The position numbers were made by a program, and so were the translations under genes. 64,000 bases of DNA, from contig QAIB01000006.1 in the NCBI GenBank assembly GCA_030418545.1, positions 62,001 to 126,000 on the forward strand, in the 5' to 3' direction. Origin of the DNA: Xenophilus aerolatus. Its GTDB lineage: Bacteria; Pseudomonadota; Gammaproteobacteria; Burkholderiales; Burkholderiaceae_C. Below, in pieces: positions 46,569 through 49,700 of this stretch (position 1 is the first letter of the stretch; each line of letters opens with the position of its first letter). Below the pieces are notes generated by a model, which had not been told where the DNA came from, did no database searches, and saw nothing but the letters and a program-made list of their open reading frames with translations.

Positions 46569-46739
46569 GACGGAATTCTAGGTGCCGCGTCCGGGCGTCT
46601 CGAGAGGCGCCGGCGCAGTCGGCTGAACCGGTCCTGAATCCCAAACTGTCATCGAGATAACTATTTCGTACCAATTTTCACCCGGCACGGACACAATTCG
46701 TTAAATTATGTATCTTTAGTTCACAAAAGAGACCGCTCC

Positions 46740-49700
46740 ACGAATCGCATCCACCGTGTCGTCTTCAACCGCGCGCTTGGCGTCGCACAGGTGGTGCAGG
46801 AGACGGCAAGCGCCCGATCTGCATGCAAAAGTGCGTCGGTCAGGGTGGGTACGTCGTCCTTTGTTGTTTTCAGCCCGGCCGTGTTGGCACAGGCCCTGGC
46901 TCTGGCGATTGCTGCCATGTCGCTGAGTCCCGCCTGGGCGGATGGCGGCCGGGGCGGCAACCCCGGTCGCGGTACGGGTGCCGGTGGCGCAGGCGGCACG
47001 ACCGCCTCGGCCACTGGCTCCAACGGCAGCGCACAGAACGTCGGCATCTACAGATTGGGCGGCGGCGGCGGCGGCGGTGCCATGAACGCCAACGGCACCG
47101 GCGCGGCCGGCGGCGCAGGCGGTAACGGCGGCAGCGGCGGGGCCGGTGGCGCCACGGTGGGAGCGACCGCCACCACCAACAGCACGCTCACGACCAACCG
47201 CACGGGCAGCAACGGCACGGCGGGTGGCGTACCGACCACCGTGGTGAGCGGCTACATCGACGGCGGCGGCGGTGGCGGTGGCGGCGGCGCGGCCGGCGTG
47301 CTGTCGACGGCCGGCTCCCTGACCGTCAACGCCAATGTATCGGCCACCGGTGGCAACGGCGGTAATGGCGGCCGCGCCGGGGTCAATCAGAGCGAAGAAG
47401 GCGGCGGCGGCGGGGGCGGCCAGGGCGCGGCGGCAGTGCTCGTCGCGCCCAACGCGTCGAACAATCGCGTGGTCACCAATGCCGGTACCCTGACTGGCGG
47501 CAATGGCGGCAATGGCGGCAACGGTGGCACCGGCGGCGTCAACGGTGCCGGCGGCAGCGGTGGCGACGGCGGCGCCGGCGTGGTGTTCTGGCACACGAAC
47601 GGCGCCACGCTTACGAACACCGGCACCATCACCGGCGGCAACGGCGGCGTGGCGGGCGCCGGCGGCGGCAGCGGCGGCACCGGCGGCGTCGGCATCACCG
47701 GCAGCAACCTGAGCATCACCAACAGCGGCACCATCAGCGGCGGCCTGGCCAATGGCGGCACCGGCACGCGCGCCAGCGCCATCGTCTTCACCGGCGGCAC
47801 CAACACCCTGACACTGAACACCGGCTCGACCGTGAACGGCAACGTGGTGGCCGTCGCCGGCGGCAGCGACCAACTGCGGCTGGGCAGCACCAACAACGGC
47901 AGCGCGGGCTTCAACGTCGGCCTGATCGGCAGCCAGTACCAGAACTTTGCAGGCTACGGCGTCACGGGCGGCACCTGGACGCTGAGCGGCACCACCACCG
48001 CGCTGACGCCGTGGTCGGTGACGGGCGGCACGCTGTCCATCAGCGACGACGCCAGCCTGGGTGCGTCCACCGGCGCGCTCAGGCTCAACGGCGGCACGCT
48101 GCAGACGACGGCCGACGTGACCAGCACGCGCAACGTCACGCTGGGCAACAGCGACGGGCGCTTCGCCACCGCGAACGGCACGACGCTGACCTTGGGCGGC
48201 GCCGTCACCGGCAGCGGCGAACTCTTCAAGAACAACGGCGGCACCCTCGTGCTCACCGGCACCAACAACTACGGCGGCGGCACCTCGATCACGGGCGGCA
48301 CGCTGCAGCTGGGCGCTGGCGGCACCACGGGCTCGATCACGGGCACCGTCGCCATCTCCAGCGGCGCCACCCTGGCGATCGACCGCACCAACACCAGCAC
48401 CCTCAGCGGCGCCGGCCGCGTGGTGCAGCAAGGCACCGGCACGACGGTGCTCACCGGCAACAACAACTACAGCGGCGGCACCGTGATCAGCGCGGGCACG
48501 CTGCAGGTGGGCAACGGCGGCACGACCGGCAGCCTGGGCAGTGGCAACGTCGTCAACAACGCCGCCCTGGTCTTCAACCGCAGCAACACCGCGACGGTGG
48601 CCAACGCCATCAGCGGCACGGGCTCGCTGCGGCAGGCAGGCACCGGCACCACCGTGCTGACCGCCACCAACAGCTACACCGGCGGCATCACCATCAGCGC
48701 CGGCACGCTGCAACTGGGCAACGGCGGCAACACCGGCTCGATCGCCGGCGACGTCGTCAACAACGGCACGCTGGCCTTCAACCGCGCCAACGCCGTCGAC
48801 TTCACGGGCAGCACGATCTCGGGCAACGGCGCGGTGCGCCAGATCGGCAATGGCACCACCACGCTGGCGAACGTGAACACCTACGCGGGCGGCACGGCCA
48901 TCACCGATGGCACGCTGGTCGGCACGGCCGCCAGCTTCGGCAGCGGCGCCATCGTCGACAACGCGGCGCTGGTGATCAACCAGGCAAGTGACGCCACGAT
49001 GGCCAATGCCATCACCGGCAGCGGCAGCCTGCGCAAGGGCGGTGCGGGCGCGCTGTCGCTGACGGGCACGGTCAACCTGACGGGCGGCGCTGTGGTCACC
49101 GAGGGCCGCGTGCAGCTGGGCGATGCGTCGACCACCAATGGCTCGATCGCCGGCGCACAAGGCGCAACAGGCAATGCGGGCGTGAGCACGGGCGGCGCGG
49201 GTGGAACGGGCGGCGCGGCACTGTCGCTCACCGGCACGGCCGCCGGGACGACGAACTTCGGCACCCTGGCGGGTGGCGCCGGCGGCACCGGCGGCGGGGC
49301 GCTGGGCACCGGTGGCGCGGGCGGCACCGGGGGCACCGGCGTGTCCAACGCGGTGGCGGGCGCGACGCTGCAAAACGCCGGCCGTATTGCCGGCGGCAAC
49401 GGTGGCACGGGCGGCGGCGCCGTCGGCACCGGCGGTGCGGGCGGCAACGGCGGCCGAGCCCTGGCGCTCGCGGCAGCGACGCAGGTCGACAACAGCGGCA
49501 CCATCGCGGGCGGCAACGGCGGCGCGGGCGGCAACGGCGGCCTGGGTGCCAACGGCGCCGGTGGCGCTGGCGGCGTGGGCCTGACAGCGAACGGCGGCAG
49601 CACCGTCATCAACAGCGGCACGATCAGCGGCGGCGTGTCGGCAACCGGCGGCGTGCGTGCCGACGCGATCCGCTTCACGGGCGGTGGCAACCGGCTCGAG

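Follow-up and report, generated by a model that had tools for sequence, protein, structure and literature searches.

An ACG codon in the start position of a large ESPR-type autotransporter gene of Xenophilus aerolatus

We report that a gene for a classical autotransporter in Xenophilus aerolatus has ACG in the place where the start codon of its ESPR is expected, and that the rest of its reading frame is intact. We consider it rather probable that ATG changed to ACG recently and in a single clone, which would have left the autotransporter gene leaky or silent but otherwise intact.

The gene and its protein

The gene lies in a window of 64 kb, which here means the whole stretch of DNA that was analysed, from a genome assembly of 5.84 Mb in 47 contigs. 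The features discussed are as follows (coordinates of the window).

46707..46727, + strand: 21-base upstream block TATGTATCTTTAGTTCACAAA, identical in the three species having the gene
46725..46732, + strand: AAAAGAGA, a weak Shine-Dalgarno-like site with its GAG core conserved in two orthologues
46740..46742, + strand: ACG in the start-codon place; ATG at the same place in both orthologues
46740..52751, + strand: classical (type Va) autotransporter gene, 2003 codons from ACG plus stop, with ESPR, ten PATR stretches and PF03797 barrel
46743..46883, + strand: Pfam ESPR match (PF13018), residues 2-48 counted from ACG
46791..46796, + strand: GTG GTG, the first in-frame conventional start codons; their use would remove the ESPR
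51690..52748, + strand: C-terminal stretch searched, with the beta-barrel translocator PF03797 at residues 79-333 of the stretch

The reading frame around the ACG at 46740-46742 is TNRIHRVVFNRALGVAQVVQETA, and no stop interrupts the 2003 codons from ACG to the stop codon that ends at 52751. In a Pfam scan of the frame read from ACG the ESPR (PF13018) scored 33.2 bits (cut-off 25), which confirms the initial annotation, made from the sequence alone, in placing ACG 46740 at the Met position of an ESPR; in the whole-genome search the same ESPR scored 39.5 bits. PATR repeats (PF12951) were matched in 10 stretches, likewise 10 with TIGR02601, and the autotransporter beta-domain (PF03797) scored 200.8 bits (cut-off 26) in a scan of the last 353 residues, a match that came from this C-terminal part alone and was absent from the output of the whole-protein scan. 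The open frame, the repeats and the barrel agree with the autotransporter of about 2000 residues that had been proposed. For the C-terminal 353 residues no solved structure was matched by sequence. With ESPR, PATR and C-terminal barrel each above the Pfam cut-off, the predicted product is an ESPR-type classical autotransporter.

When the whole protein was used as query, PATR proteins filled the results (at least 1592 at E ≤ 1e-20 among 8000 scored). Residues 1-330 as query matched 11 proteins over short parts and with identities of at most 62%, so the protein search gave no closer orthologue. The stretch 42132-46568 beside the autotransporter gene contains, all on the opposite strand, tandem genes for DUF1501 and DUF1800 proteins and a gene of the orotidine 5'-phosphate decarboxylase family (45744-46568).

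A second assembly, that of Xenophilus sp. E41 (Comamonadaceae; L036 in genome G149), also reads ACG at this site. Out of the window's 64 kb, about 63.2 kb (38979-39739 lying outside the comparison) show zero base differences between the two; at a repeat near 49447-49510, E41 has a gap of 7 N and is 69 bases longer. A further 20 kb from another contig is 100% identical, and 200 kb more gave one mismatch and one 43-base length difference. By these comparisons the two genomes look like a single clone, or perhaps a single strain, that was assembled twice, and their agreement on ACG, while it makes an assembly slip unlikely, is not population evidence.

Sequence upstream of the frame

From the ACG up to the in-frame stop 35 codons above it there is no ATG, GTG or TTG in frame, in agreement with the absence of upstream starts stated in the initial annotation, and the first conventional in-frame starts below it are GTG 46791 and GTG 46794. 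The ribosome site had been described as well spaced. Seven bases separate AAAAGAGA from ACG, so this part holds; the site is weak in strength, however, as its best duplex with the anti-Shine-Dalgarno sequence is -2.9 kcal/mol (-2.7 to -2.9 in the three species). Among 2000 random 20-mers from the G+C-rich window, 55% reached -3 kcal/mol or better.

The 21-base block at 46707-46727 is found once per genome, solely at the autotransporter locus, in four of 15 genomes of the genus (three mismatches or fewer), the four including two of the same clone. It holds a tiny frame, ATG-TAT-CTT-TAG, and is a candidate promoter, leader or regulator site, of which we regard promoter or leader as probable. A promoter scan of 46550-46800 gave no sigma-70-like site on the + strand. 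Within the frame, the DNA of ESPR codons 2-11 (46743-46772) is identical between the window and the orthologue L038 (see below), synonymous sites included, and L039 differs at two codons; over these 30 bases only, there may possibly be constraint on the RNA as well.

Orthologues and direction of change

To find orthologues, we scanned genome contigs and searched 15 genomes of the genus at the DNA level. This gave two, both from MAGs that computed kinship places in further species of the genus: L038 (G002, JAVHYA010000017.1) and L039 (G012, JAFEEH010000020.1). The gene of G012 is broken by a contig boundary, its C-terminal part being L037 (JAFEEH010000171.1), on a second contig of that MAG. L038 has a scaffold gap inside the gene, written as 100 N whatever its real length; the stop at codon 303 of L038 stands behind this gap and is therefore no evidence of decay, and the frame values of L038 beyond the gap were excluded. 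A short DNA match of 73% in G013 was rejected, as it belongs to another ESPR gene with ATG (L048) that its further sequence rules out as an orthologue.

Aligned with the window, L038 and L039 both show ATG at the position of the ACG. The three sequences hardly differ in the upstream block and the first codons, the neighbouring DNA aligns, and the spacer is one base shorter in the window. The orthologues thus share the upstream block and the ESPR with the window gene and differ from it in starting with ATG. On the simplest reading, ATG in both makes ATG the ancestral and ACG the derived state; this is the direction suggested in the initial annotation, for which an alignment had been proposed as the check. 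Conservation of ACG between species was not seen in the two orthologues found. Orthologues without the ESPR had been named as a finding that would speak against the proposal; none was found, both having an ESPR. Other ESPR genes with NRIHRVVFN (L002, L023 and L025) start with ATG, and the three distant homologues that were read all begin MNRIHR.

Start codons of ESPR genes in relatives

Among 149 relatives searched for the ESPR, 47 genomes yielded 123 hits (E ≤ 1e-4), and in 122 of these the codon at ESPR position 1 could be read (the gene in G100, which runs off a contig end, was left out). In many genomes the scoring covered only 42 first-look candidates, and the survey may therefore lack some ESPR genes. 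The codon at ESPR position 1 is ATG in 105 genes, GTG in 10, CTG in three, and TTG, CTC, AAA and ACG in one each. Each of the CTG, CTC and AAA cases has an in-frame ATG 3-8 codons above, and the window gene is alone among the 122 in lacking a conventional start codon both at ESPR position 1 and above it. In this it differs from the ESPR-bearing classical autotransporters (type Va secretion; PF13018, PF12951, PF03797), with which it shares the ESPR, the PATR repeats and the C-terminal barrel. The missing start bears on expression and not on the family, and so it weakens the view that the protein is made with its ESPR rather than the assignment of the gene. Five ESPR genes of the window's own genome are above the cut-off and have ATG, ATG, GTG, GTG and ACG at position 1; a sixth, sub-threshold hit (L006, 18.4 bits) was uncounted.

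A strict ACG-ESPR pattern searched in 399 genomes of the order matched the window gene alone (the backward control matched 13 times). When the start codon was relaxed to A/G/T, any base, G, 399 genomes of the family yielded 52 matches (15 with the backward control), namely 42 ATG, four GTG, one TTG, three ACG including the window, one AAG and one GCG. Four odd matches outside the window were rejected: two have a stop within 16 codons, and by eye none resembles an ESPR followed by a signal peptide. ESPRs with a divergent core escape both patterns, and there is overlap between the two sets of genomes.

GTG or TTG at ESPR position 1 is commoner in the genus (8 of 48) than outside it (3 of 74; Fisher p 0.024), with p 0.42 once five similar GTG genes count as one. 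These five (L108, L097, L092, L095 and L094 in G000, G002, G008, G012 and G013, one per species) share NAALG[AT]WVA[AT]PETSRR; all have GTG at position 1 and no ATG within 11 codons above, and apparently represent a conserved weak start at one autotransporter-like gene.

Selection on the coding sequence

Changes were counted among the three species over 1193 of the 2003 codons, those aligned in all three (none of codons 1-60, 1079 of 61-1231 and 114 of 1232-2003). On the window lineage there are 73 synonymous and 51 non-synonymous single changes, the two ATG lineages having 52:44 and 65:37 (Fisher p 0.50 and 0.49 against the window). Where about 2.15 non-synonymous changes per synonymous change are expected under neutrality, the window lineage stands at about 0.32 of neutral and the others at 0.39 and 0.26. 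By these counts the window lineage is under purifying selection over the 1193 codons, like the ATG orthologues, and a ratio no different from theirs indicates that there was no long period without function. An old pseudogene was rejected, both the 2003 open codons and the value of about 0.32 (1193 codons) speaking against decay. Recent loss and continued low expression cannot be separated by such counts.

The N terminus was compared in a separate alignment (A1) of codons 1-37, of which 14 are unassignable (12 differ in all three species and two are gapped). Within ESPR codons 2-17 three changes fall on the window lineage, all of them silent, and a clear amino-acid replacement is absent. Two further codons have a different triplet in each of the three species, the differences being silent at one (G) and reading V/L/M at the other. 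On these small numbers, constraint on the protein seems to have acted on the ESPR through much of the history of the lineage, which fits a recent loss of the start and continued translation from ACG alike.

Alternative explanations

The initial annotation had offered a rare ACG start that keeps expression low as one reading. That ACG is a true, selected chromosomal start, which would limit this giant surface protein, ESPR included, to about one percent of normal expression or less, is in our view unlikely, although the complete and constrained frame, the silent changes in the ESPR (few as they are) and an ACG start that can work in E. coli behind a B0034 site (PMC10449621) are in its favour; the genus excess of GTG/TTG also points this way before, and hardly after, the five similar genes are collapsed. 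Against it, ACG is confined to one clone and follows a weak Shine-Dalgarno, both orthologues have ATG, and neither the 122 ESPR genes nor the pattern scans of order and family gave a second case. Among the matches listed from open-licence literature there was no natural bacterial gene with an ACG start, the ACG starts described there being mostly viral, organelle, eukaryotic or engineered.

Translation from GTG 46791 or 46794, with Sec export through an ordinary signal peptide and no contribution from an ESPR, is less probable still. GTG is a normal start codon, and the N terminus that would remain keeps a hydrophobic stretch with SLSPAWA at its end (a signal peptide by visual judgement). A Pfam scan of 46791-46940 gave no match, so that GTG use would lose the ESPR; according to a review, a signal sequence without it is usually enough for export, and loss of the ESPR usually leaves export intact, although some proteins are then impaired in periplasmic transit and assembly (PMC8151025). 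The idea that the change forces use of a GTG does not stand up well, because 46791 is GCG in one orthologue and neither GTG has a well-placed Shine-Dalgarno: the best duplex before 46791 is only -1.5 kcal/mol, and a match of -5.7 kcal/mol before 46794 abuts the codon, at the wrong spacing. GTG 46794 is present in all three species, but as the V of the ESPR, which is the only sense in which it is conserved, and the ESPR sequence has been kept on the window lineage.

A sequencing or assembly error at the C of 46741, raised as a possibility in the initial annotation, is very improbable, since E41, even if it seems to be the same clone and might share reads, has a different contig structure (about 40 contigs against 47), the two assemblies differ in length at two repeats and yet both have ACG, and there is no homopolymer at the site.

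Discussion

In the explanation that we prefer, a recent start-codon change, ATG would have become ACG in the Xenophilus clone lineage, recently relative to the split from the sister species. The mRNA would probably still be made because the upstream region is otherwise conserved, and the weak Shine-Dalgarno would still put ACG in the start position. There the initiator tRNA would be mismatched at the middle base, with initiation down to perhaps a percent or less of that at ATG, and what little protein is made would have fMet followed by the complete ESPR. The sequence itself, the direction of change (on two orthologues) and the intact, constrained frame are observed, and from them we infer transcription, the level of initiation and the recency of the change; the weak Shine-Dalgarno together with ACG leads us to expect very low output.

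Three E. coli studies with ACG starts give a scale for such output. A single-copy chromosomal GFP with an ACG start is described as normally not expressed (PMC5097136), and a codon-library study places ACG among codons at 0.1-1.5% of ATG, the values for some other codons being oddly high (PMC6925171). A regulator in an ACG version remained functional when placed behind the B0034 ribosome site, its authors giving a reduced initiation rate (PMC10449621), and this counts against the preferred explanation, as does the complete frame, which is also expected of a working ACG gene. These cases have the same codon at the start position as the window gene; they were engineered or laboratory-selected, whereas the window has a natural change, known from sequence, behind a weak ribosome site.

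A start caller limited to ATG, GTG and TTG, such as the lister of open reading frames applied to the window, moves the start of this gene to a GTG and hides its ESPR. If ACG is used, the gene would offer a natural bacterial case for testing start-codon tuning of a costly surface protein; if it is not, a large autotransporter gene would have been switched down by one base with its frame still open. Most likely, the change is a recent switch-off rather than a new way of starting genes.
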